NCBI GenBank assembly: GCA_022071965.1
Contig: JAJVIQ010000002.1
Span: 1 to 64,000 of the forward strand
DNA length: 64,000 nt
Origin: Gammaproteobacteria bacterium
GTDB lineage: Bacteria > Pseudomonadota > Gammaproteobacteria > JAJPIJ01
Direction: 5' to 3'
Below the pieces are notes generated by a model, which was not told where the DNA came from, did not search any database, and worked only from the letters and a program-made list of their open reading frames with translations. Position numbers and translations under genes: made by a program. Position 1 is the first letter of the stretch. Each line of letters opens with the position of its first letter. Positions 4,002 to 59,241 of the stretch are shown here, piece by piece.

Positions 4002-4811
4002 ATGGAACGCATCAAACAGGCGCTCGAGCGCGCGCGCCAGGAACAGGTCCGCAGCCTGGGCAGCGGCGTCGTGCACCCGCTGGCCCCCGTAGAGGCGCCC
4101 GAGAGCCAGATCAGCTACTCCGAGACCCGCGTCACGCCGGTCTCGCCGTCGGCGCTGAGGAAGAACCGCATCATCACCGGCACCGAGACCGACGAGGTGA
4201 CGGCGGCCTACAAGATCCTGCGCACGCAGGTGCTGCAGAGATTGGTGAGCAAGAACTGGAACGCGCTTGCGGTGACCAGCCCGGGCCCGGGGCAGGGCAA
4301 GACCGTCACGGCCATCAATCTCGCGATCAGCCTCGCGCGCGAGGTGCAGCACACCGTGCTGCTGGTCGATCTCGACATGCGCCGCCCGGGCATCCATCGC
4401 TATCTCGGGCTCAATGCGCAGTTCGGCATCAGCGACGTGCTGACCAGGGGCACGCCCGTCAGCCACGCGCTCATCAATCCCGGCATCGACCGGCTGGTGG
4501 TACTGCCCGGCAGGGAGGCGCTGCCGAACTCATCGGAGCTGCTGAAGTCCCCGCGCATGGTGCAGCTGGTGAAGGAACTGAAGTCGCGCTACGTCACCCG
4601 CCTCATCATCTTCGACCTGCCGCCGTTGCTGTCGGTGGACGACGCCATCGCGTTCACACCCTACGTCGACGCGGCGCTGGTGGTCGTCGCCGAAGGCCTC
4701 ACCACGGGCGAGGAGCTCCAGCACGCGAGCAGCCTGCTCGCCAACACGCCGGTCGTCGGTACCGTCCTGAATCGCTCGAGCGAGAAGGCAACCCCGTATT
4801 TCGACGCATGA
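4002..4811 (+). CDS. XrtA-associated tyrosine autokinase (BY-kinase, CpsD/CapB type)
   Basis: Cytoplasmic bacterial tyrosine kinase working with the preceding chain-length determinant. Walker A SPGPGQGKT lies at residues 93-101, Walker A' LLVDLDMRRPG near 120-130, and Walker B LIIFDLPPLLSVDDA near 203-217. It starts with ATG 9 bases after the previous stop. The C-terminus ends in ATPYFDA and so has only one tyrosine, in place of the tyrosine cluster of enterobacterial Wzc-type kinases. Phosphorylation cycles of such kinases regulate polymer assembly (family knowledge). The separate kinase and chain-length proteins follow the two-polypeptide arrangement. Confidence 0.9.
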   Translation: MERIKQALERARQEQVRSLGSGVVHPLAPVEAPESQISYSETRVTPVSPSALRKNRIITGTETDEVTAAYKILRTQVLQRLVSKNWNALAVTSPGPGQGKTVTAINLAISLAREVQHTVLLVDLDMRRPGIHRYLGLNAQFGISDVLTRGTPVSHALINPGIDRLVVLPGREALPNSSELLKSPRMVQLVKELKSRYVTRLIIFDLPPLLSVDDAIAFTPYVDAALVVVAEGLTTGEELQHASSLLANTPVVGTVLNRSSEKATPYFDA

Positions 4812-4898
4812 TGAACCGTTATCACCGGATCCGGCGGACACGAGGGCCAGCCACGGGCGGCGGGCAGCGGGCCATCGCCGTGGGATCGCTCCGCTGAC

Positions 4899-5822
4899 AT
4901 GTACGAAGAGTTCTACGGCCTGAAGGAGCGCCCGTTCACGCTGCAGCCCGACCCGGCGTTCCTCTACCTCAGCCGGCGCCACCGCTCGGCGATCACGCTG
5001 CTCGAATACAGCATCGTCAGCCGCGCCAGCTTCACCGTCGTCTCCGGCGAGATCGGCTCCGGCAAGACGACCCTGGTGCGGCATCTGCTCAATCGCTTGG
5101 ATCGGGACGTGACGGTGGGCCTCATCACAAATACGCATCGCGCGCTCGGCGAGCTGCTGCAGTGGGTTTGCCTCGCCTTCGGCCTGCCCTACTCGGGGCA
5201 GGAGAAGATCACGCTCTACCAGCAGTTCATGGATTTTCTCATCGATCAGTACTCCAAGGGCCGGCGTACGGTGCTCATCGTCGACGAGGCGCACAATCTC
5301 GACGTCAGCACGCTGGAGGAGCTGCGCCTGCTGTCCAACATCAACGTCGACAAGGACCAGGTGCTGCAGATGATCCTCGTCGGCCAGCCGGAGCTGCGCG
5401 AGATGCTCATGCGCCCGGCGCTCACCCAGCTCGCGCAGCGGGTGTCGGTGGCCTGCCACATCGAGCCGCTCAATCCGGATGAGACCGACGAGTACATCCG
5501 TCATCGCATCGACGTGGCGGGCGGCGATCCCGACATCTTCAAGCCGGCCGCCACGCGCTTCATCTACCACCAGACCGGTGGCATACCGCGCATGATCAAC
5601 AAGCTCTGCGACATGTCGCTGGTGTACGGCTTCGCCGAGCAGCGGCCCCAGATCGACGTGAAGCTGGTGTTCGACGTGGTGCGCGAGCAGATCCAGGGCG
5701 GTCTGTCGTTCTACAAGCTGAAGGGTGACAACGAGGGCGACGTGCGCGTCGGCGAGCTGCCGGCAACGCCGGGCGAGGATCCCGACGTCGCCCCGCTGCG
5801 CATGCCCACGCTGACGAAGTAG
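4899..5822 (+). CDS. XrtA/PEP-CTERM-associated AAA ATPase (ExeA/GspA-like)
   Basis: A 307-residue AAA ATPase opening with the family-typical MYEEFYGLKERPFTLQPDP. Walker A is GEIGSGKTT (residues 50-58); Walker B is VLIVDEAHNLD near residue 124. It resembles the ATPase domain of ExeA/GspA and is a regular member of XrtA exopolysaccharide loci. The start lies 87 bases after the autokinase stop, so it is probably co-transcribed. The C-terminal 50 residues are acidic and Pro-rich. It is the last gene of the operon in this window; 209 bases without a recognised feature follow. Confidence 0.88.
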   Translation: MYEEFYGLKERPFTLQPDPAFLYLSRRHRSAITLLEYSIVSRASFTVVSGEIGSGKTTLVRHLLNRLDRDVTVGLITNTHRALGELLQWVCLAFGLPYSGQEKITLYQQFMDFLIDQYSKGRRTVLIVDEAHNLDVSTLEELRLLSNINVDKDQVLQMILVGQPELREMLMRPALTQLAQRVSVACHIEPLNPDETDEYIRHRIDVAGGDPDIFKPAATRFIYHQTGGIPRMINKLCDMSLVYGFAEQRPQIDVKLVFDVVREQIQGGLSFYKLKGDNEGDVRVGELPATPGEDPDVAPLRMPTLTK

Positions 5823-6031
5823 GCCTGACGCGGCATCCGAGGGCCCCGCGGCATCGGCGCGAGGGCCCGCATGGCCGCGATTCCCCGGACAGCGACCGGG
5901 CGGTCGCCGTTCCCGCCTTGACAGGCTCCTCGCGCCGGTCGATTGCGCCGGACAGGAACCGGTAAAGATTGTTCCCCGTCTGCCGACATCCGTATCGGGC
6001 ATCTCATGGCGCGCCCGAGGGGATCGGCATC

Positions 6032-7018
6032 GTGACAAGCAAGAGCGGGGAAAGCGCGCTGTGCGCGGCACTCCTGGGCGTGGTCTGCACGGTCGCGAGC
6101 GGCAATGCGGCGGCCGTCTACGTGCGCCACGACCGCGATGTCTCGGCGTTCGAGGACCTGGCGGCGATGGCACAGTTCGAGGCTGCCGGCTTCTTCACCA
6201 CCGGCTGCTCCGGCGTGCTCATCGGCGCGAGCACCGTGCTCACCGCCGCGCACTGCGCCACGAGCGGGAAGACGAGCTTCGGTTTCGGTGCGGAGCGGGA
6301 CGGCGCGCGGACCTACGAGGTGGCCAGCATGGAGCGCCATCCGTTGTACGCCGCCGGGGCCAACGGCTACCAGTACGATCTGGCCATCGCGAGCCTGCTC
6401 GCGCCGGTCGAGGATGTCATCCCAGCAACCATCACCCCGGTGAACCTCATCGGCCGGCAGGTCACCATGGTCGGGTACGGCGGGCAGGGCACCGGACTCG
6501 GCACCCCATTGAGCGGCGCCACGGACCGCCTGGCCGCCACCAATACCATCGACACCACCGCCTACAATCTCTGGGCGGCGGACTTCGACTCCCCGGCGAG
6601 CAACAAGAGTCTCATTGGCGGGCGGGTCCCGACGGCGTACGAGGGCCAGCTCGCCGGCGGCGACAGCGGCAGTCCGCTGTTCTGGAGCAACTTCCTCGTC
6701 GGCATCGGCGCGTACACCTTCTGCCAGACCGGCGGCTGCAGCTCCACCTCGATTTACGGGACGGCGAGCCTCTGGGTGCGGCTGGATCTGGCCGCCAATC
6801 GCCAGTTCATCGACCAGGCGCTGGCGCGTGCCGCCAGCCACCCCGCGTCGTCCTCGGCGGTGCCGGTGCCGCCGGCCGGCTGGCTGCTCGGTACCGCCCT
6901 GCTCAGCATGCCGTTGCTGCGTCGGGGCGGCCGTGCGGCAGCGGCCGCCGGTGCCCGGTGCGCGGCCCGACGTCCAGCCGATCGCCCCCCGGCCCGCGTG
7001 CAGGCGGGCGTGCCGTAG
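6032..7018 (+). CDS. Secreted trypsin-like serine protease with PEP-CTERM tail
   Basis: S1-family protease, 328 residues from GTG 6032. I chose this start because GAGGGG lies 9 bases upstream and a signal peptide (LCAALLGVVCTVASGNAAA) follows directly. The catalytic triad is visible: LTAAHC (His), YDLAIASL (Asp) and GGDSGSP (Ser). Near the C-terminus VPVPPAGWLLGTALLSMPLL then RR forms a PEP-CTERM-like sorting signal, so the protein is probably processed by exosortase at the cell surface. Oddly, about 30 Ala/Arg-rich residues follow the RR, whereas such proteins normally end within a few residues; this may be a run-on after loss of the original stop. It sits just downstream of the exopolysaccharide operon. 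Confidence 0.82.
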   Translation: MTSKSGESALCAALLGVVCTVASGNAAAVYVRHDRDVSAFEDLAAMAQFEAAGFFTTGCSGVLIGASTVLTAAHCATSGKTSFGFGAERDGARTYEVASMERHPLYAAGANGYQYDLAIASLLAPVEDVIPATITPVNLIGRQVTMVGYGGQGTGLGTPLSGATDRLAATNTIDTTAYNLWAADFDSPASNKSLIGGRVPTAYEGQLAGGDSGSPLFWSNFLVGIGAYTFCQTGGCSSTSIYGTASLWVRLDLAANRQFIDQALARAASHPASSSAVPVPPAGWLLGTALLSMPLLRRGGRAAAAAGARCAARRPADRPPARVQAGVP

Positions 7019-47777: not shown

Positions 47778-48239
47778 CTACGCGTACTCTGCGGCGTCTT
47801 CGCCGACCGGCGCCGTCTTCCGGGCATGCGGGGCAGCGGCGCGCAGCGGCACCACGACGGTCTCGGCCTCTGGCGGCTGCGGCATCTCGGCGGCGATGCG
47901 CTCGACCAGCTCCTCCACCTGCGCCTTGTCGAACATCTCGTGGTAGCGCTTCTTCACGCCGTAGTCGCTGAGCACGTGGTGCACGGCGGGCTCGACGCCA
48001 TGTCGCGCCAGGGAGCTCTTCACGCAGTACAGGTTGCAGCCGTCCAGCGCGACGATGGGGCGGCCGGACTTGGCGACCTTCACGAGACTCGGGACGTCGC
48101 CCCCGACGCCGGCGATGCAGGACATCTCGGCCTTGCCGCGATGATCCAGGGCCAGCGCGATGTAATTGGCCGCCTGCGCGGCGCTGGAGCAACCGGAACA
48201 GCTGTAAACCAGGGGCTTGGACTTGTCGTTTCGTGCCAT
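47778..48239 (-). CDS. DGC-domain (putative zinc-binding) protein, copy 1
   Basis: 153 residues from ATG 48239; GGAGGG lies 7 bases upstream. Conserved cysteines occur in the order VYSCSGCSSAAQAANYIALA, GKAEMSCIAGVGGDVPSLV and VALDGCNLYCVKSSLARHGV, the DGC-domain pattern. A C-terminal part LSDYGVKKRYHEMFDKAQ precedes an Ala/Pro tail. Likely a small cytoplasmic metal- or thiol-active protein of unknown function. The promoter has an FNR box centred 100 bases upstream of the start and an 18-bp palindrome centred 51 bases upstream. The first 129 codons are identical at DNA level to copy 2, and the tail differs. Confidence 0.85.
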   Translation of the reverse strand: MARNDKSKPLVYSCSGCSSAAQAANYIALALDHRGKAEMSCIAGVGGDVPSLVKVAKSGRPIVALDGCNLYCVKSSLARHGVEPAVHHVLSDYGVKKRYHEMFDKAQVEELVERIAAEMPQPPEAETVVVPLRAAAPHARKTAPVGEDAAEYA

Positions 48240-48316
48240 GCGAAAACCCTCCACGGTGAGTGCCGACATAGCGTGAATACAATGAAACAAATGTTTCATA
48301 CGGAGAAATACTGTAG
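47853..48316 (-). repeat. 464-bp direct repeat, copy 1
   Basis: Identical base for base to 48693-49156, an exact offset of 840. It covers the first 129 codons of the DGC gene plus 77 bases of leader including the palindrome. Outside the block similarity falls off abruptly, except for the FNR box at the same offset. Confidence 0.97.
48282..48299. promoter_or_regulatory. 18-bp palindrome in DGC copy 1 promoter
   Basis: ATGAAACAAATGTTTCAT: 8-bp perfect arms around AA, centred 51 bases before the start codon. Probably an operator for a dimeric regulator, family not recognised. Confidence 0.65.
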
Positions 48317-48332
48317 AGGAGGGCTCTATTCC

Positions 48333-48346
48333 TTGATCTCGATCAA
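48333..48346. promoter_or_regulatory. FNR/ANR box of DGC copy 1
   Basis: TTGATCTCGATCAA is a perfect match to the FNR consensus TTGAT-N4-ATCAA. It is centred 100 bases upstream of the start codon, with a -10-like TACAGT (minus strand, about 48310-48315) placed for class II activation. This predicts anaerobic induction. Confidence 0.75.
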
Positions 48347-48445
48347 CCAACTGCGCCTGCGCGCTCGATCCCGGGCGCCCGCCCCCCATCTCCGTGCCGA
48401 TACTGCATTGCAATAAATTAGAGTGACTGCCTCCTCCTCAATAGA

Positions 48446-48544: not shown

Positions 48545-48692
48545 GATCCTGCCGGCACGGGCAGGGCAACGATGCTGCCGGCGACGAGCCACCCCGCTCA
48601 CGGAAGCGGCACGGCGCTCACGCCGACATGGCACACGACGGCGCCGTTGTTGAAGATCCGCGTCGATCCGAATCTGAAGCTGGCAGTTGCGT
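48545..48692 (-). pseudogene. 3' remnant of a PEP-CTERM gene fused to DGC copy 2
   Basis: In the minus-strand frame next to the DGC frame the sequence reads TASFRFGSTRIFNNGAVVCH, VGVSAVPLP, stop (TGA), AGWLVAGSIVALPVPAG. This is the end of a PEP-CTERM protein, with a nonsense codon inside the sorting signal and the basic tail lost. It begins exactly where the 464-bp repeat ends (48693), so the duplicated DGC segment has replaced or interrupted the front of this gene. Confidence 0.65.
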
Positions 48693-49079
48693 CACGACGG
48701 TCTCGGCCTCTGGCGGCTGCGGCATCTCGGCGGCGATGCGCTCGACCAGCTCCTCCACCTGCGCCTTGTCGAACATCTCGTGGTAGCGCTTCTTCACGCC
48801 GTAGTCGCTGAGCACGTGGTGCACGGCGGGCTCGACGCCATGTCGCGCCAGGGAGCTCTTCACGCAGTACAGGTTGCAGCCGTCCAGCGCGACGATGGGG
48901 CGGCCGGACTTGGCGACCTTCACGAGACTCGGGACGTCGCCCCCGACGCCGGCGATGCAGGACATCTCGGCCTTGCCGCGATGATCCAGGGCCAGCGCGA
49001 TGTAATTGGCCGCCTGCGCGGCGCTGGAGCAACCGGAACAGCTGTAAACCAGGGGCTTGGACTTGTCGTTTCGTGCCAT
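48618..49079 (-). CDS. DGC-domain protein, copy 2, with chimeric C-terminus
   Basis: 153 residues from ATG 49079. The first 129 codons are identical to copy 1, keeping all DGC cysteines, and the start has the same GGAGGG site. After 48693 the frame runs into a PEP-CTERM remnant read out of frame, giving the tail TQLPASDSDRRGSSTTAPSC then AMSA. The core domain is intact, so the protein may work. It has its own FNR box and palindrome. Confidence 0.75.
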   Translation of the reverse strand: MARNDKSKPLVYSCSGCSSAAQAANYIALALDHRGKAEMSCIAGVGGDVPSLVKVAKSGRPIVALDGCNLYCVKSSLARHGVEPAVHHVLSDYGVKKRYHEMFDKAQVEELVERIAAEMPQPPEAETVVTQLPASDSDRRGSSTTAPSCAMSA

Positions 49080-49156
49080 GCGAAAACCCTCCACGGTGAG
49101 TGCCGACATAGCGTGAATACAATGAAACAAATGTTTCATACGGAGAAATACTGTAG
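48693..49156 (-). repeat. 464-bp direct repeat, copy 2
   Basis: Perfectly identical to 47853-48316. No terminal inverted repeats or transposase were seen, so this is a tandem duplication or gene-conversion tract, not an insertion sequence. Confidence 0.97.
49122..49139. promoter_or_regulatory. 18-bp palindrome in DGC copy 2 promoter
   Basis: Same ATGAAACAAATGTTTCAT operator-like element as copy 1, inside the identical block. Confidence 0.65.
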
Positions 49157-49172
49157 CAATGGCGCACGTTCT

Positions 49173-51308: not shown

Positions 51309-52532
51309 TTACAAACCGCTTACAGATCTGAGGGTCCGCTCGCCGGCGAGCGAGCCGACGCCGCCCGGGCCCGAGGTCGCGCCTTCGCCGTATGCAAACC
51401 GTTCGGCGGCCGCCTCGGCGCCGCCACGCGTCGCCGCCTGCAACTTGCGCTGTATGGCAGCGTAGAGCTCGCGGGTTTCGACGGCGGGCATCACGCCCAG
51501 CAGCCGGCCGAGCATCAGCCCGCAACGCCGGTAGAGGGCCACGGCATCCGCGGTCAGGCCGAGCCTGTCGTACTCGGCCATCAGCCGGCGATAGAGCTCC
51601 TCGGCCAGCGGATCGATCTCGATGGCGCGCCGGTACACCGCTATCGACAGGTCGTGCTGGCCGAGCCGATCGCAGCGCTCGGCGTAGGCACCCACCGCGC
51701 GCACGAACTTGCTGCGCAGACGCTCGCGCAACACCGTCGCCCACGGCGCGTCGTGCATTGGAAGAAAGGCGCCCTGGTACAGGTCGAGCGCCGCATCGAA
51801 GCGCTCCACGCTGGCATCGGACTGCCCGGGCTGTGCCTCATGGTGGCCGTCCATATGGGCAATCGCCTGTTCGAACACCAGTGCGTCGACCCAGAACGTG
51901 GCCGGGTCCAGGCTCAGGCGGCCGCCGCGCACGCACAGCGCCTCCCTCGCATCCAGGAGTTTGCGTAGCCGGTGCAGCGTGACGTTGAACGACTGCATCG
52001 CCGTCGCGCCGTCGGCATCCAGCCAGAGATCCGCGCAGATCGTCGTCACCGCCACGTTGCGGCCGCCGCGCGCGACGATGGCCGTCAACAGGTCCAGCGG
52101 CTTGCGCGGCACCCGGCCGGAGAAGTCGAGCGGCCAGCCGTCGATCTCGATGGCGAATCGCCCGAGCGTGTGAATGCGGATGCGCGGCGCGCCCATCGGC
52201 TGCGTGCTCGTCGCCGTTGGCACCACGCCGTCCAGGCTGCGGGCAAGTGCGAGGATCAGCGCGCGCATCTGCGCGTGAGGCAGGTGCCCGATGCAGGGCA
52301 ACTGTTCGGCGAGCGAGCGCGTCTCCGCCATCCAGCGCTCGAGGCGTTCTCGCGTCCAGGTGATCCCGGATTCGCAGGCCGTTGCGTGCCTGCTGTGGCT
52401 TGGCTTCCTCATGGCCCTCGCCGCGTGCCGCCTTTTTGCAGTCGGCTTTGATTGCGGCGCCTCTGGGTGACCCCGAAGCAGCCGCCATGCCAGCGGATCG
52501 CGCGATGAAGCCGTCTTGCACGCAGCTTCCAT
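51309..52532 (-). CDS. BTAD/SARP-like transcriptional regulator
   Basis: 407 residues from ATG 52532, which has GGAGG 5 bases upstream. The first 115 residues are a basic/helical extension. An OmpR-like winged helix follows: RIHTLGRFAIEIDGWPLDF, RKPLDLLTAIVARGGRNVAV, SFNVTLHRLRKLLDA. The bacterial transcriptional activation domain comes next (FDAALDLYQGAFLPMHDAPW, AVYRRAIEIDPLAEELYRRL). No AAA or sensor domain is attached. It lies 95 bases upstream of the PEP-CTERM gene on the same strand and could regulate the PEP-CTERM cluster (inference). Confidence 0.82.
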   Translation of the reverse strand: MEAACKTASSRDPLAWRLLRGHPEAPQSKPTAKRRHAARAMRKPSHSRHATACESGITWTRERLERWMAETRSLAEQLPCIGHLPHAQMRALILALARSLDGVVPTATSTQPMGAPRIRIHTLGRFAIEIDGWPLDFSGRVPRKPLDLLTAIVARGGRNVAVTTICADLWLDADGATAMQSFNVTLHRLRKLLDAREALCVRGGRLSLDPATFWVDALVFEQAIAHMDGHHEAQPGQSDASVERFDAALDLYQGAFLPMHDAPWATVLRERLRSKFVRAVGAYAERCDRLGQHDLSIAVYRRAIEIDPLAEELYRRLMAEYDRLGLTADAVALYRRCGLMLGRLLGVMPAVETRELYAAIQRKLQAATRGGAEAAAERFAYGEGATSGPGGVGSLAGERTLRSVSGL

Positions 52533-52959: not shown

Positions 52960-53211
52960 ATGAGGATTCGATACTTCGAGGAAACCGACACGTTGTACAT
53001 CGAGTTCAAGCCGGCGGATGTGGCTGAGACACGCGACCTTGATGAGAACACGGATGCATTGCCGTGCGGTTCTCCCTGGACAAATTCGCCGGGAGCGAAT
53101 TTGGACGCCCGTAGGGCGGCCCCGAAGGGGCGAGCCTCCGGAACGAGGCAAGCAAAGGGCGGGGTGGGGCCGAACCGGCAAGTATGGGGCGCGCCTATTC
53201 CCGCGATATAG
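52960..53211 (+). pseudogene. Truncated DUF2283 gene fragment
   Basis: ATG 52960 opens MRIRYFEETDTLYIEFKPAD and VAETRDLDENT, the first half of a DUF2283 protein. From about 53053 the frame loses all similarity and passes through repeat-like DNA (GCCCGTAGGGC and GCCCCGAAGGGGC) to a stop at 53211. The second half of the domain is missing, so this is a broken gene. It lies directly upstream of the AAA/PspA cluster. Confidence 0.6.
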
Positions 53212-53222
53212 AATAGCTGCGC

Positions 53223-54083
53223 ATGAGGCGGGGCTTTCTCGACTATCTGAGCGCGGCGTTCAACGCGCGCCCGTTCGGCATGCCGGTCCCGCCGAACTGG
53301 CTCGGCCTGGCCGGCTTCGGGCTGGCGGGCCTCGTCAACCCCGGCTTCTGGATCATCGGCGCCGGTGTCGAGCTCGGCTATCTCTTCCTGCTCGGCACCA
53401 ATGCCCGCTTCCAGCGCCTGGTGGATGGCCGCGACGCCGCCCGCGAGCAGGCCGAGTGGCGGGCGCGCATGGAGAAGATGGCCGGCTATCTCGATCGCGG
53501 CGAGCAGCGCCACTTCCTCGATCTGCAGACGCGCTGCAAGGCGATACTCGATGCACGCACCGGCGCCGGGGAGACCCCGGCCGCCGGCCTGGAGACCACC
53601 GCGGCTGGCCTTGCCAGCCTGCTGTGGTTCTACCTGCGCCTGCTCCTCACGCGGCGCGGCATACGGCGCGTGGTGGCGGGCACCGGCGGCAGCGAGCCGC
53701 TGGAGGAGATCGAGCAGAGCATCGATGAGGCCCGGAAACGCCTCGAGGACGGCACGCTTGCCGGGAACCTGCGCGAGAGCCTGCAGGGGCAGCTCGCCAT
53801 CCTCGAGCAGCGGCTGGAGAAGCGCAGCGAGGCCGCCACCAAGCTCGAATTCATCGACTCCGAGCTCGAGCGCATCGAGCACCAGATCGGCCTGATTCAC
53901 GATCAGTCGGCGCTGTCGACCAACCCCGAGGCGATGACGCATCATATCAACGAGGTCGCCGCGACCATGGACAGCACCAACCAGTGGATCCGCGACCAGC
54001 AGCGCATCTACGGCGACCTGGGCGATCTCATGGCCGAGCCGCCATCCAGCATCCTCCAGGCGCCGCAGAAGGAGAGCGCATGA
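53223..54083 (+). CDS. Membrane/coiled-coil protein, first gene of the AAA-PspA cluster
   Basis: 286 residues. Two adjacent hydrophobic segments (GLAGFGLAGLVNPGFWIIGA and GVELGYLFLLG, residues about 27-57) are followed by a helical cytoplasmic part with a further hydrophobic stretch (ASLLWFYLRLLL near 130). A long coiled coil runs at about 155-230 (LEEIEQSIDEARKRLEDGTL). The family is not recognised. An in-frame TAG at 53214 bars an upstream start, and there is no ribosome-binding site before ATG 53223, only TATAGAAT at 53207-53214, so the mRNA may be nearly leaderless. The stop overlaps the AAA gene by four bases (ATGA). It probably anchors the AAA/PspA machinery to the inner membrane (inference). 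Confidence 0.8.
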   Translation: MRRGFLDYLSAAFNARPFGMPVPPNWLGLAGFGLAGLVNPGFWIIGAGVELGYLFLLGTNARFQRLVDGRDAAREQAEWRARMEKMAGYLDRGEQRHFLDLQTRCKAILDARTGAGETPAAGLETTAAGLASLLWFYLRLLLTRRGIRRVVAGTGGSEPLEEIEQSIDEARKRLEDGTLAGNLRESLQGQLAILEQRLEKRSEAATKLEFIDSELERIEHQIGLIHDQSALSTNPEAMTHHINEVAATMDSTNQWIRDQQRIYGDLGDLMAEPPSSILQAPQKESA

Positions 54084-55888
54084 GCGCGACACTGCCGGAA
54101 TGGGCCGAGCGCATGCGCGAACTGTTCCGCTCCGGCGCGGTCTCGCAGTTCATCCTGCACGGCAACGTCTTCGATGTGGTCTCGCACGCGGGCGCGGGCA
54201 CGACGCCGGGCCTCAATCCGGGCGCCGGCGCGAGCACGAAATCAGGCGCAGGCGCCACTGCCGTCGAGAAGGCCGCCGCCGCACCCGCTGACCACCGTCT
54301 GCCGCAGTCGCTGAAGCAGTTCCTCAACGACGTTATGTTCGGGGCCTACGACGTGGTGCTGCACTACGATCGCGGCCACGGCATCCGCGCGCTGAAGGGC
54401 GGGGAGGACTGGGGCGAGTGGCTGCAGCAGCTCGGTGCCGGCGCGAGCATCGATCAGACCCGCCCGCCGGCGGCGGCGCTGGAGCTCATCGATCGCTACC
54501 TGCTGCGCTCGCTGCACCTGCAGGCCATGCGCGGGACCAGCCGCCGCATCGCGGTGATGATCGAGTTCGCCGAGTTCGTCGTGCCGAACGGCGATCCGCT
54601 GCAGCTCGGCGGGGACTTCAGCGCCAACGTGGTGAAGGTGCTGAGCTGGGCCAACGACCCGGCGATCCTGCAGGCCAACATCGTCACCGTGCTCATCGCC
54701 GAGGCGCTGAACGACGTCAACGATCTCGTCACCCGCAACCCGCACGCCGCCGCGCTGCACGTGGCGCTGCCCAACGAGGCGGAGATGCGCGCGCACATCG
54801 ACGCCCTCATCGCCGGGGAGTGGAAGGACCTGCCCGCGAGGTGCGAGGTCAGCATCGAGACGCTGGCGCGCCGCCTCACGGGCCTGAGCCGCGTGGGTGC
54901 GCGCACCGCGGTGAACCTCGCGCTGCGCAACGAGCAGAAGATCACCTCCGTGTGGCTCTCCCGCATCAAGAAGGAGACGATCGAACGGGAGTGCCAGGGG
55001 CTCATCGAGTTCCTGGAGTCGCCCTACACGCTGGAGAGCGTCGCCGGCCACGACGCCGTGAAGGCGTGGCTGCGCGAGGACGCGGAGCTGCTGAAGCGCG
55101 GCGCGCTGCAGGCCCTGCCCATGGGCTATCTCATCGCCGGGCGCATCGGCACCGGCAAGACCTTCATCGTGAGCTGCTGGGCAGGCGAGCTCGGCATCCC
55201 CTGCGTGGTGCTGAAGAACTTCCGCGACCGCTGGGTGGGCGCCACGGAATCCAACCTCGAGAAGATCTTCGCCATCCTGCGCGCGCTTGGCCAGGTGGTG
55301 GTGTTCGTCGACGAGGCCGACCAGGCCGCCGGCAAGCGCGAGGGCGGCAGCAGCGACAGCGGGCTCTCGGGCCGCGTCTACGGCATGCTCGCCAAGGAGA
55401 TGTCCGACACGCGCAACCGCGGCCGCATCCTGTGGGTGTTCGCGACCTCGCGGCCGGACCTGCTCGAGGTGGATCTGAAGCGCCAGGGGCGGCTCGACGT
55501 CCACATCCCGCTCTTCCCGCCGGAGACGGCCGGGGAGGTGCGCGTGATGCTGATGGCCATGGCGCGCAAGTTGAAGGCGCCGATGACCGAGGCGGACATC
55601 CCGTCGATCGACGACCCGGGCCGGTTCGCGGGCAGCGAGCTGGAAGGCGTGCTGGTGCGCGCCCTGCGCGCGCACACGCTCGCCCCGCCGCCCGCGCCGC
55701 CGTTCAAGGACACGCTCGCCGCCGTGCTCGCCGAGGTGCGGCCCAACGCCAACACCCGCAAGCTCGAGTACATGGACATGGTGGCGGTCAAGGAATGCAC
55801 CGACGCGCGCTTCCTGCCGGCGCGCTACCGCGATCTGAGCCTGGAGGAGATCGAGCGGCGCATCGAGGATCTGCGCCCGTACATATAG
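54080..55888 (+). CDS. Classical AAA ATPase with degenerate N-terminal module (Ycf46/Vps4-like)
   Basis: 602 residues. The N-terminal 250 residues look like an inactive ATPase-type module (FILHGNVFDVV, then RRIAVMIEFAEFVVP in the Walker B position) broken by an Ala/Gly-rich insert. The C-terminal AAA domain has Walker A GRIGTGKT (354-361, Lys 360), Walker B VVVFVDEAD (Asp 411, Glu 412), sensor region FATSRPDLLEVDLKRQGRLD with the arginine-finger RQGR, and PLFPPE. This is the classical AAA clade that includes Vps4, FtsH and Cdc48, with an architecture like Ycf46. It is translationally coupled to the membrane protein before it and precedes pspA, so it may remodel PspA polymers as Vps4 does ESCRT-III (inference). 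Confidence 0.85.
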   Translation: MSATLPEWAERMRELFRSGAVSQFILHGNVFDVVSHAGAGTTPGLNPGAGASTKSGAGATAVEKAAAAPADHRLPQSLKQFLNDVMFGAYDVVLHYDRGHGIRALKGGEDWGEWLQQLGAGASIDQTRPPAAALELIDRYLLRSLHLQAMRGTSRRIAVMIEFAEFVVPNGDPLQLGGDFSANVVKVLSWANDPAILQANIVTVLIAEALNDVNDLVTRNPHAAALHVALPNEAEMRAHIDALIAGEWKDLPARCEVSIETLARRLTGLSRVGARTAVNLALRNEQKITSVWLSRIKKETIERECQGLIEFLESPYTLESVAGHDAVKAWLREDAELLKRGALQALPMGYLIAGRIGTGKTFIVSCWAGELGIPCVVLKNFRDRWVGATESNLEKIFAILRALGQVVVFVDEADQAAGKREGGSSDSGLSGRVYGMLAKEMSDTRNRGRILWVFATSRPDLLEVDLKRQGRLDVHIPLFPPETAGEVRVMLMAMARKLKAPMTEADIPSIDDPGRFAGSELEGVLVRALRAHTLAPPPAPPFKDTLAAVLAEVRPNANTRKLEYMDMVAVKECTDARFLPARYRDLSLEEIERRIEDLRPYI

Positions 55889-56004
55889 AGGCGGGCAGGG
55901 CGGCGCGCCTCATGCATGGCCGTTTCGCGGCCGTGAAGCTTAGAATGGGCGCGCGTGCCGCGCGTCCTACAGAGTTCGCGGCCGATGCGGTGGGTTTCGA
56001 CGGG

Positions 56005-56024
56005 ACACCGGCGCGCGCCGGTGT
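56005..56024. promoter_or_regulatory. 20-bp perfect palindrome upstream of pspA
   Basis: ACACCGGCGCGCGCCGGTGT equals its own reverse complement. It lies in the 211-base gap between the AAA gene and pspA, without a T-run, so it is either an operator, an mRNA hairpin or an attenuator. A -10-like TTAGAAT at about 55939-55945 suggests a second promoter for pspA. Confidence 0.5.
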
Positions 56025-56099
56025 GACGGGGCGCAGAGCGGCGTCGTGAGCCGACCGCTGGCCCGGGATCGTGGATGACACAAGAGGGGAGATAGCCGC

Positions 56100-56837
56100 A
56101 TGGCCTTGATGTCGCGTATCGCCAGACTGTTCCGGGGGTTCCTGAGCCTGTTCATCAGCGGGCTCGAGGAGGCCAATCCCGAGGCCCTGATGGAGGCCGC
56201 GCGCCAGGAGTTCCGCGAGCGCATGGCGCAGTACAACCTCGCGCTGGCGCGCATGGCCGGCGTGGCCGAGCGTCTCAAGAGCCAGATCAAGGCCAAGACC
56301 ACGCGCGCCAAGGATCTGGAAAGGCGCATCCTCGCCAACCACCAGGCCGGCAACCTCGAGCTCGCCGGCGCGCTCGCGCGCGAGCTGCAGGAGCTGAAGG
56401 GCGATCTGGCCAACGACAGCGGCGAGCTCACCGACACCGAGGAGGCCTACCAGACCAACCTGCGCCAGGCCAAGGTGGTGCAGAAGGAGTTCGAGGACAA
56501 GGTCAAGGCGCTGGAGAAGCAGATGTCGCAGATCAAGATCAAGGAGGCGCAGGCCGAGGCCGCCGCCGCGCTCACCAGCACGACCTTCCGGGTGGGCGAT
56601 CTTGGCGACACGATGAAATCGGTGGAGGAGATCCTGCAGAAGCGCTACGAGACCTCCGCCGGCAAGGTGCGGCTGGCCAAGGACCTGGTCGACATGGACA
56701 AGGTGCGCGAGAAGGAGAACGAGAGCAAGGCGCTGGAGCAGGCGGCGCTCGCGGAGTTCCTGGCCAGCCAGGGCGTGCAGGCCGCCGCACCCGCGGCCGC
56801 GACGCCGACGGGCGTGAAGGAGATCGGCCCGCAGTAA
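56100..56837 (+). CDS. pspA: PspA/IM30 family membrane-remodelling protein
   Basis: 245 residues. The N-terminal amphipathic helix (MSRIARLFRGFLSLFISGLE) is followed by the long alpha-helical hairpin (EANPEALMEAARQEFRERMA, ARMAGVAERLKSQIKAKTTR, RILANHQAGNLELAGALARE) and further helices to about 215. An Ala/Pro-rich tail ends VKEIGPQ. PspA is the bacterial relative of ESCRT-III and Vipp1. It polymerises on stressed inner membranes and keeps the proton-motive force. A good site (GAGGGGAGA) precedes the ATG. No pspF, pspB or pspC is nearby; the partners here are the AAA ATPase and the SBP-OmpA fusion. Confidence 0.88.
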   Translation: MALMSRIARLFRGFLSLFISGLEEANPEALMEAARQEFRERMAQYNLALARMAGVAERLKSQIKAKTTRAKDLERRILANHQAGNLELAGALARELQELKGDLANDSGELTDTEEAYQTNLRQAKVVQKEFEDKVKALEKQMSQIKIKEAQAEAAAALTSTTFRVGDLGDTMKSVEEILQKRYETSAGKVRLAKDLVDMDKVREKENESKALEQAALAEFLASQGVQAAAPAAATPTGVKEIGPQ

Positions 56838-56885
56838 CGCGCTGCCTCATCCGAGCACACACCACCTCGCGGAGACACCGACATC

Positions 56886-58565
56886 ATGGAGAAGCAGCGG
56901 CCCCGGCCCACGTTCCTCGGATCGCTGTTGTCGATCCTGATCATCGGCGGCCTCATCGCCTTCGGCAGCTACGTGGTGATGCAGAAGCGGCAGGCGCCGC
57001 CTTCGACCGACACGCAGACCAGCACTGCCCAGACCGCCGCGACCGAGGAGGCCGCCGCGCCCGCGACCACCGCGGAGCTGCAGCAGACCGTGCCGGTGCT
57101 CGCGCCGCCGGCGGCGTACGAGCCCAAGGACAACACCGTCGCGGTCGAGCTCAGCGAATACGCCGGTTACGCCGGCCTCATCGCCGCCAACGGCGGGCTC
57201 GCGCCGAGCGAGGACTCGGTGTTCTTCAGGAAGCACGGCTTCAAGGTGAAGCTCACGCTGAGCGAGGAGGAGAGCTGGTCGGCGCTCAACAGCGGCGAGA
57301 TCGGCGCCTCGGCGACCACTGTAGACGTGCTGGCGGTGTACGGGCGGCAGTTCCAGGTGACGGTGCCGGCGCAGATCGGCTACTCGCGCGGCGCCGACGG
57401 TCTCGTCGTGCGCAACGACGTCAAGCGCATCAACGATCTGCGCGGCAAGGTGATCGCGGCGGCGCAGTTCACGGAGGCGGAGTTCTTCATCCGCTTCCTG
57501 GCGCAGGAGGCGGGGCTCGCGATCCACCTCCTCCCGGATCTCGACGCCGCGCCCGATCCGGGCAAGGTGAACCTCGTGTTCACCGACGACGGCTTCGCCG
57601 CCGGGGATCTCTTCCTCGATGATCTGAAGTCCGGCAACCGCCTCGCGGGCTGCGTGACCTGGGAGCCGAAGACCTCCGAGGTGGCCGCCGCCAGCGCCGG
57701 CAAGGCGCGCGTGCTCACCACCAACCGCAACCTGCTCATCATCGCCGACATCCTGGTGGTCAACCGCGGGCTCGCCGAGAAGCATCCGCAGATCGTCGCG
57801 GGGCTGGTCGAGGGCCTCATCGAGGGCAACCGGCGCATGCGCGACGAGCCGGATCGCCATGCCGAGACCGTGGCCAGGGCCTTCGGCTGGAGCGTCGCGG
57901 ATCTGAAGGACGAGCTCAAGCGCGTGCACCTCTCGAACCTGCCGGAGAATCTGGCCTTCTTCTCGGGCGCCATCGACGCGGCCGGCAGCTTCGGCGGCAT
58001 CTATCAGTCCGCCGTGCTCGCCTACGGCCCGCAGCTCATCCGCGATCCGGTCGACAGCGATCGCTTCGCGAACCTCACCGCGCTGAAGGCCCTGGAGCAG
58101 TCCGGTCAGTACAAGGATCAGGTGGTGCTGATCGCGCCCATCAAGACCACCGGCGCCGGCGCGATCGAGGAGGACCCGCTGCTCAGCAAGGACATCCGCT
58201 TCTTCTTCGAGCCCAATTCGGCGGTGCTCGACATGACGAAGGAGGAGAACCTGAAGGACCTCGACGGCATCCGCAACCTGCTGCAGGTGAGCCCCGGCTC
58301 CACCGTGCTGCTGCGCGGCCACGTCGACAACGCGCTGGTGGAGGAATTCCGCCGCGAGGGCGGCGAGCCGTTCGTGCGGCAGATGGCCCTGCGCGCGCTG
58401 GAGCTCTCGAAGAACCGCGCCGCGGAGATCAAGCGGCTGCTGGTGGAGCGCTACCGCGTGGCCGACGCGCGCATCGACGTGGTCGGCCGCGGGTGGGAGG
58501 AACCCGCGGGCACCGACTCCGATCTGAACCGCCGCGTCGAGGTGCAGTGGTACACCATCGAATAA
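56886..58565 (+). CDS. Membrane-anchored solute-binding domain fused to OmpA peptidoglycan-binding domain
   Basis: 559 residues, 48 bases after pspA. One membrane helix (FLGSLLSILIIGGLIAFGSY, residues about 10-30) and an Ala/Thr/Pro linker lead to a periplasmic type-2 solute-binding domain of the NMT1/TauA class (about 82-395: VAVELSEYAGYAGLIAANGG, NDVKRINDLRGKVIAAAQF). The C-terminal OmpA domain (about 432-559) has RFFFEPNSAVLD, LLRGHVDNALVEEF with the conserved Asp, LSKNRAAEIKRLL and NRRVEVQW with the conserved Arg. It therefore tethers a ligand-sensing module between inner membrane and cell wall. No ABC permease or ATPase is present, so transport is unlikely; sensing is inferred. Confidence 0.85.
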   Translation: MEKQRPRPTFLGSLLSILIIGGLIAFGSYVVMQKRQAPPSTDTQTSTAQTAATEEAAAPATTAELQQTVPVLAPPAAYEPKDNTVAVELSEYAGYAGLIAANGGLAPSEDSVFFRKHGFKVKLTLSEEESWSALNSGEIGASATTVDVLAVYGRQFQVTVPAQIGYSRGADGLVVRNDVKRINDLRGKVIAAAQFTEAEFFIRFLAQEAGLAIHLLPDLDAAPDPGKVNLVFTDDGFAAGDLFLDDLKSGNRLAGCVTWEPKTSEVAAASAGKARVLTTNRNLLIIADILVVNRGLAEKHPQIVAGLVEGLIEGNRRMRDEPDRHAETVARAFGWSVADLKDELKRVHLSNLPENLAFFSGAIDAAGSFGGIYQSAVLAYGPQLIRDPVDSDRFANLTALKALEQSGQYKDQVVLIAPIKTTGAGAIEEDPLLSKDIRFFFEPNSAVLDMTKEENLKDLDGIRNLLQVSPGSTVLLRGHVDNALVEEFRREGGEPFVRQMALRALELSKNRAAEIKRLLVERYRVADARIDVVGRGWEEPAGTDSDLNRRVEVQWYTIE

Positions 58566-58760: not shown

Positions 58761-58994
58761 ATGGCTGCCAATCTACGTGATGAACTGCGTGAGCTGGCCG
58801 ACCGATTGCCGGCCGATGCGACGTGGAAGGACGTGCTTTACGAAGCCTACGTTCGCCAGGAGATTGAAGCGGGACTGGAAGAGGCCCGGCGCGGGGAGTT
58901 CGCCACGGATGACGAAGTAAAATCTGCGTTCGCCAGATGGGGCGTGCAAATTGAAACTGAGATGGACACGTCGAGCCCTGAGTCAGCTCGCTGA
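58761..58994 (+). CDS. Antitoxin of a ParE/RelE-type module
   Basis: 77 residues, mostly helical: MAANLRDELRELADRLPADA, TWKDVLYEAYVRQEIEAGLE and EEARRGEFATDDEVKSAFAR. The GEFATDDEV segment with W at the end resembles short antitoxins that pair with ParE toxins. GGAGG lies 6 bases before the ATG, and a -10-like TAGAAT lies about 30 bases upstream. Its 3' end overlaps the toxin by 44 bases. It is expected to neutralise the toxin and repress the promoter. Confidence 0.78.
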   Translation: MAANLRDELRELADRLPADATWKDVLYEAYVRQEIEAGLEEARRGEFATDDEVKSAFARWGVQIETEMDTSSPESAR

Positions 58995-59241
58995 CGCACA
59001 AGAGTTCATTGCACAGGATAATCCCATCGCTGCCAAACAGATCGCCGAGCGCATCGCGCGGTCTGCCGAACTGTTGCTATCACAGCCCGGCATTGGGCGC
59101 GTCACTGGCACGCGTGAATGGGTGATCAGCGGAACGCCCTATTTTCTTGTTTACGTCATTCATGACGACACATTACAAGTGCTACGCCTGATTCACGGCA
59201 AGCAGAACTGGCCGGTATCCGCCCATTCGAAGAGATCCTGA
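58951..59241 (+). CDS. ParE/RelE superfamily toxin
   Basis: 96 residues starting at TTG 58951 inside the antitoxin gene. Typical ParE pattern: LRWTRRALSQLADAQEFIAQ, DNPIAAKQIAERIARSAELL, PGIGRVTGTREWVISGTPYF and LVYVIHDDTLQVLRLIHGKQ. This class poisons gyrase or cuts mRNA; this sequence looks more like ParE. Translation is coupled to the antitoxin. Confidence 0.85.
   Translation: MKLRWTRRALSQLADAQEFIAQDNPIAAKQIAERIARSAELLLSQPGIGRVTGTREWVISGTPYFLVYVIHDDTLQVLRLIHGKQNWPVSAHSKRS

Follow-up and report, generated by a model that had tools for sequence, protein, structure and literature searches.

The window analysed here is a stretch of 64,000 nucleotides from a Gammaproteobacteria bacterium (contig JAJVIQ010000002.1, positions 1 to 64,000), which carries on its plus strand a quartet of genes for a coiled-coil protein with a probable membrane hairpin (given the working name MCC), an AAA ATPase (AAA), a PspA/IM30 homologue (PspA), and a fusion of a solute-binding domain with an OmpA domain (SBPO). 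All four open reading frames (ORFs) were located, and their coordinates and families bear out the original prediction of four same-strand genes, the first two of which overlap. The MCC gene (53223..54083) shares an ATGA start/stop overlap with the AAA gene (54080..55888), at 54080..54083 by direct reading of the sequence, an arrangement that suggests translational coupling; the genes for PspA (56100..56837) and SBPO (56886..58565) follow. We show herein that PspA proteins of this kind end in a short motif, [KR]x[MLI]GP, whose occurrence tracks that of the AAA protein across genomes.

PspA, a protein of 245 amino acids, belongs to the PspA/IM30 family (PF04012, PspA_IM30; E = 3.7e-9, 37.0 bits against a gathering cut-off of 33.9) and is the sole PF04012 match in its 98.7%-complete genome. 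It terminates in KEIGPQ, of which K-E-I-G-P (56817..56831) is the proposed AAA-docking tag. In an alignment of PspAs (A3), 19 of 19 sequences, the window's included, have an invariant Gly-Pro within the consensus [KR]x[MLI]GP, about 12 residues or fewer from the C-terminus. At one locus elsewhere (L229, genome G309), two tandem partner-type PspA ORFs (4562-5317 and 5398-6411) lie beside the AAA gene; the one nearer to it lacks the tail and continues into a different C-terminus, and is possibly frameshifted.

The AAA protein is 602 amino acids long, and its match to PF00004 (AAA; 6.5e-22) lies in its second half. An alignment of 26 sequences located in this active C-terminal domain (D2) the Walker A motif GRIGTGKT (55139..55162), pore loop 1, NFRDRWVG (55217..55240), with an invariant aromatic residue, W385, and the Walker B pair D411-E412 (55310..55315), both residues of which are invariant; E412 had been named beforehand as the Walker B glutamate. 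Walker A and B and the arginine-finger positions R468 and R471 are all invariant or nearly so, and the pore-loop consensus, NFR(D/E)(R/K)W(V/M)G, aligns with SKWVGESE of an archaeal VCP-like ATPase. These are the features of a classical AAA motor. The N-terminal domain (D1, 54080..54997) is a degenerate AAA-like domain, and no P-loop was found in the first half of any of the 26 homologues.

An AlphaFold2 (AF2) model of the protein (pLDDT 78.5) gave fold matches to Rix7, VCP/Cdc48 and DRG1, all tandem AAA proteins, at E values of about 1e-15 to 1e-13. The structural alignments span about 580-650 columns, nearly the full length, at about 15-18% identity; the global TM-scores are low (0.3-0.4), and therefore the tandem architecture is supported and the specific arrangement of the domains is not. 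The best NCBIfam matches are to CDC48 and FtsH, that to CdvC being much weaker. On this modelled fold the protein is predicted to have a tandem Cdc48/p97/Rix7-like architecture in which the first domain is inactive and the second intact, and its best sequence and fold matches share with it the possession of two AAA domains. Membership of the Cdc48/p97 family itself is not indicated, given a first domain without a P-loop and a CDC48 score of 59 bits against a cut-off of 802.65. Nor is this a member of the Vps4/CdvC family: a Pfam scan of the window protein gave no match to MIT or Vps4_C, and the CdvC equivalog score was 32.2 bits against a cut-off of 650. The original prediction of a classical AAA motor therefore holds, and its Vps4-type assignment gives way to a tandem, Cdc48/p97-like one. 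Among the relatives' AAA proteins examined, D1 was matched, weakly, only by those that we take from their motifs to be Ycf46-like (profile E values of 4.6e-5 and 1.6e-4), which likewise have a degenerate N-terminal AAA-like domain. The two groups form separate clades in a tree of AAA domains of modest quality, in which several rows were mis-extracted and some branches are very long, so that its coarse grouping alone was used.

The relation between tail and motor was followed in two samples. The first comprised 30 genomes found by AAA homology in contigs of one genome per species, and a PspA with the strict motif occurs in 23 of them, at times on another contig than the AAA gene (L071, L077, L079, L086 and L101); the canonical PspAs of the same genomes are tailless, with a single exception (L091). 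The second was an even draw of 199 Acidobacteriota genomes, in which contig-end fragments (G154 and G289) were rechecked with a looser search. Here 21 AAA-positive genomes had a readable PspA end, which was the strict motif in 15, QKT[ML]-COOH in five, and neither in one. The QKT[ML] variant was defined after inspection of the data, and all five PspAs that bear it share a contig with an AAA of a divergent subfamily. A conserved tail of either form was thus present in 20/21 AAA-positive as against 0/30 AAA-negative Acidobacteriota (Fisher p, uncorrected for kinship, is 2.7e-13 when either tail is counted and 1.7e-8 when the strict motif alone is). The tail was likewise absent from the PspA_IM30 proteins of AAA-lacking relatives of the same class (0/22) and from control PspAs of Desulfobacterota (0/30). 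The latter include the second, canonical PspA of the AAA-positive genome G110, whose AAA-associated PspA ends in KELGPQ. Over the three groups, none of the 84 PspA proteins (22 + 33 + 29) that come from genomes without the AAA had the tail.

Several observations speak against a functional tie between the two. PspA functions without any AAA in most bacteria. Four Eremiobacterota genomes of the first sample have one PspA that ends in RELGGG and another that ends in RPLQI (or similar), and lack the strict motif (the remainder of the 30 had no readable PspA end). The PspA of AAA-positive G190 has neither tail, and in five genomes of Desulfobacterota that encode a distant relative of the AAA, PspA was not detected. 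The canonical PspA of L091, an AAA-positive genome, ends in RAIGPAS, an ending that is probably due to chance. In a kinship tree built from PspA core sequences with the tail removed, AAA presence changes about 3-4 times and the tail about three times, too few for significance. Lastly, the AAA and PspA genes of the window are separated by 211 bp containing a perfect 20-bp palindrome, ACACCGGCGCGCGCCGGTGT (56005..56024, no strand assigned; one copy in the window), possibly an operator or a folded RNA element, and this gap may leave room for separate expression. Because it splits AAA from PspA, co-transcription of all four genes is a candidate only.

The small number of independent changes, together with the clustering of tailed PspAs on the tree, would also fit a tail that is simply an inherited trait of one PspA lineage, for example a membrane or self-assembly contact, with AAA and PspA co-transferred by operon and never touching. 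Against such simple inheritance, the motif is conserved while the linker before it varies in length and composition (alignment A3), and the link between tail and AAA outlasts the loss of gene linkage, the tail being retained in genomes whose PspA and AAA genes are widely separated (G219, G245 and G286) or lie on separate contigs (G175, G187, G103, G110, G117 and G121). The few pairs on the tree that differ in both tail and AAA always agree in direction, and none opposes the link. The clearest event lies in a clade of 20 PspAs (SH-aLRT 98), in which 7/7 AAA-positive members are tailed and a nested group of 13 is without both AAA and tail, its closest kin having both. We regard inheritance without contact as very unlikely. 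The association of tail and AAA appears to be new, with few independent evolutionary events behind it.

Relatives of the AAA protein were found at the 30 loci of the first sample with 40-88% identity, in metagenome-assembled genomes (MAGs) labelled as Gammaproteobacteria, Acidobacteria/Thermoanaerobaculia, Aminicenantes, Gemmatimonadetes, Planctomycetota, candidate division CSSED10-310, Eremiobacterota, BRC1, Deltaproteobacteria and Desulfonema. Two main gene orders recur, MCC-AAA-PspA-SBPO, as in the window, and PspA-SBPO-permease-ABC ATPase-MCC-AAA, a six-gene order that is the common form and whose two additional genes encode a permease (BPD_transp_1) and an ABC ATPase. Full orders were seen in Gammaproteobacteria, Acidobacteriota, Aminicenantes, Gemmatimonadetes, BRC1 and others, and the six-gene order persists with very divergent AAA and MCC proteins at L224 and, with overlapping ORF calls, at L217 and L218. 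Reduced forms also occur, namely a three-gene PspA-MCC-AAA order (L222 and L223) and a two-gene PspA-AAA order (L048, L050 and L059). The window cluster is a compact version of the six-gene class without the ABC pair. Among the 199 Acidobacteriota, close AAA homologues are present in seven genomes, partner-type PspAs in seven, and both in six (Fisher p = 6e-10); the co-occurrence beyond close relatives on which the original prediction depended is found, and its recurrence across phyla indicates an arrangement far beyond chance. At the Eremiobacterota loci L049, L052, L057 and L061, the AAA gene adjoins genes for Ser/Thr-kinase proteins and a PilZ protein, not PspA. The closest homologues of the window AAA (65-69%) and PspA (70-77%) outside its genus belong to Acidobacteria, Gemmatimonadetes and Planctomycetota, and neither protein occurs in the two members of the family that were sampled from elsewhere. 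We therefore infer that the cassette reached the window's genus by horizontal transfer.

SBPO combines an N-terminal membrane anchor (hydropathy peak 2.3, residues 14-32), a solute-binding domain of the NMT1/SsuA class (SsuA_fam in NCBIfam, 1.6e-12), and an OmpA domain (58203..58535; PF00691 in Pfam, 4.1e-10). In the OmpA domain, D481 (58326-58328) and R511 (58416-58418) are invariant in 15 aligned homologues; these correspond to the positions at which OmpA-like domains bind diaminopimelate (DAP). The conserved Asp and Arg expected of a peptidoglycan-binding domain are thus kept, and the earlier assignment of this domain to peptidoglycan is consistent with the sequence; the further suggestion that SBPO is a sensor of wall spacing is speculative. 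The presence of the permease and ABC ATPase genes within the operon in most relatives raises the alternative that SBPO, permease and ATPase constitute a wall-anchored importer, for which PspA, AAA and MCC merely stabilise or organise a membrane patch; a link between membrane remodelling and solute transport has also been suggested in the relevant passage of Ravi et al. 2024 (PMC11237479). No such pair, however, lies beside the cluster in the window, in its sister genome, or at L032, L034, L035 and L037, and PspA-MCC-AAA and PspA-AAA loci occur without an adjacent SBPO. In the window genome a single full-length protein is related to the permease, at 34% identity; it lies in a complete transporter set with a separate ABC ATPase and a binding protein, and this SsuABC-like transporter (contig C13) is an unlikely candidate for the missing partner. 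We consider an accessory role in import distinctly unlikely. Because the ABC pair is gone and the sole permease relative is self-contained, SBPO probably acts without a dedicated transporter in the window lineage, where a role as sensor or tether is likelier for it than one as part of a transporter.

MCC, of 286 amino acids, probably forms a membrane hairpin at about residues 26-59 with an NPG turn, as judged from the sequence of the window protein and 17 aligned homologues, and its hydropathy peak is just 1.56; a long coiled coil follows. Its AF2 model (pLDDT 78) is all helical. No family in Pfam or NCBIfam was matched, the Pfam families recorded for 17 MCC members do not include Snf7, an alignment with PspA by hhalign had a probability of 0.25%, and Foldseek gave no match at E<=0.001, its top ones being BAR/SMC coiled coils at chance level. 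MCC was accordingly set aside as a PspA/Snf7 paralogue or a member of a known family. In a CSSED10-310 genome (G113, L070), an MCC homologue (G113:C13:21399-22880) lies beside a second, tailless PspA, and the tailed PspA lies beside AAA.

The MCC gene overlaps that of AAA in the window and adjoins it in most loci, and the AAA pore loop is of a generic threading type. Both points would suit a reversal of roles, in which PspA is the regulator and AAA its client, the polymer or its tail inhibiting or localising the motor and the real substrate being a protein of the membrane or wall, for instance MCC, SBPO or the ABC transporter. A precedent is the inhibition of the AAA+ activator PspF by PspA of E. 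coli, which is established according to work cited within a passage of PMC9239133. The cluster shares a PspA/IM30 effector with the E. coli pspFABC system, but its AAA is a classical motor without features of a sigma-54 activator. Moreover, tailed PspA lies beside AAA in the absence of a detected MCC homologue in G111 and G122, and Eremiobacterota have AAA and PspA with no detectable MCC. We hold the regulator reading to be unlikely.

The original prediction also held that the usual partners pspF, pspB and pspC are absent, and none was recognised in a check limited to the ORFs around the cluster. An upstream promoter scan yielded no sigma-70 match and, above chance level, nothing like the sigma-54 site of pspA, neither result being decisive. 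An anti-phage defence role was discarded, the PADLOC matches reflecting generic IetA-type AAA similarity only. Just upstream of MCC is a truncated-looking DUF2283 remnant (52960-53067; PF10049, 4e-9), and the nearest large gene in that direction, divergent to the cluster, encodes a BTAD/SARP-type transcriptional activator (51309-52532, minus strand; PF03704, 7.3e-23). Downstream of SBPO, two overlapping small ORFs on the plus strand (58761-58994 and 58951-59241) resemble a ParD/RelE-type toxin-antitoxin pair by eye only. Farther off, on the minus strand (47781-48413 and 48598-49167), a gene for a DGC-domain protein (PF08859, 1.3e-33) has a second copy of 300 bp, 99% identical, at a distance of 840 bp (47843-48142 and 48683-48982) and in another reading context; this copy reflects either a partial duplication of recent origin or an artefact of the assembly.

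The observation holds up and makes biological sense, and the cluster falls within a class of operons that has been described before. In the passage devoted to such operons, Ravi et al. (2024, mSystems; PMC11237479) report PspA linked to a double-AAA protein with an inactive N-terminal copy, an ABC transporter and a PBPB-OmpA protein (for example OGG56892.1), and propose a Vps4-like remodelling; the core of the AAA-PspA inference, which the original prediction half acknowledged as known, is therefore in print. The double AAA and the linked PBPB-OmpA are found in the window, and the ABC ATPase and permease, which according to the same passage "may occur", are not beside its cluster. That passage also mentions a transmembrane Snf7 homologue, whereas MCC resembles neither Snf7 nor PspA in Pfam and hhalign comparisons, and the passage makes no mention of a C-terminal PspA tail. 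Literature on Ycf46 and on PspA with MIM contained nothing bearing on such a tail. New, as it appears, are the tail-motor association, the recasting of the motor from Vps4-like to tandem Cdc48-like, the measured distribution, and the compact form without a transporter.

The nearest analogy is with ESCRT-III and Vps4 (CdvB/CdvC), where a polymer of the same superfamily is likewise encoded beside a classical AAA with an aromatic pore loop; the adjacency of PspA and AAA across phyla supplies the gene partnership that characterises Vps4/CdvC. A short C-terminal motif of the polymer tracks the motor here, comparable to the MIM motif. The MIM motif is recognised by MIT domains. Vps4 differs in having MIT and Vps4_C domains and a single AAA, where the window AAA is tandem. 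A locus type of archaeal ESCRT with the solute-binding protein ProX (PMC11188069) offers a curious parallel to SBPO.

We think it fairly probable that PspA and AAA constitute a bacterial ESCRT-III-like polymer and a dedicated remodelling motor that grips its tail. PspA is known to form polymers on the cytoplasmic side of the inner membrane, and there the polymer of this cluster would form, its flexible C-terminal linkers displaying the tag [KR]x[MLI]GP. A tandem AAA hexamer would capture the tag, its inactive first ring serving recognition and assembly and its second ring pulling in an ATP-dependent manner through the aromatic pore loop, so that subunits might be threaded and the membrane-bound polymer remodelled or depolymerised by their extraction. 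MCC, held by its probable membrane hairpin with its coiled coil in the cytoplasm and translationally coupled to AAA, probably serves as a platform that gathers the motor at the membrane. SBPO, anchored in the inner membrane, would bind a periplasmic ligand and, by its grip on peptidoglycan, link the site to the wall. Its partner in most relatives would be the ABC transporter, which the window lineage appears to have dropped. More tentatively, we propose that some bacteria have a complete two-part ESCRT-like cycle, equal in function to ESCRT-III/Vps4, in which a tandem unfoldase recruited from the Cdc48-like side of the AAA proteins reads the PspA tag and is coupled to a peptidoglycan-anchored periplasmic sensor; polymer tag and motor would then have an origin independent of Vps4-MIT/MIM.

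How bacterial ESCRT-III polymers are disassembled is an open question in the field, and a tag that tracks the motor turns a published guess from gene neighbourhoods into a directly testable idea. If it is true, the combination of polymer, motor and tag would have evolved at least twice.

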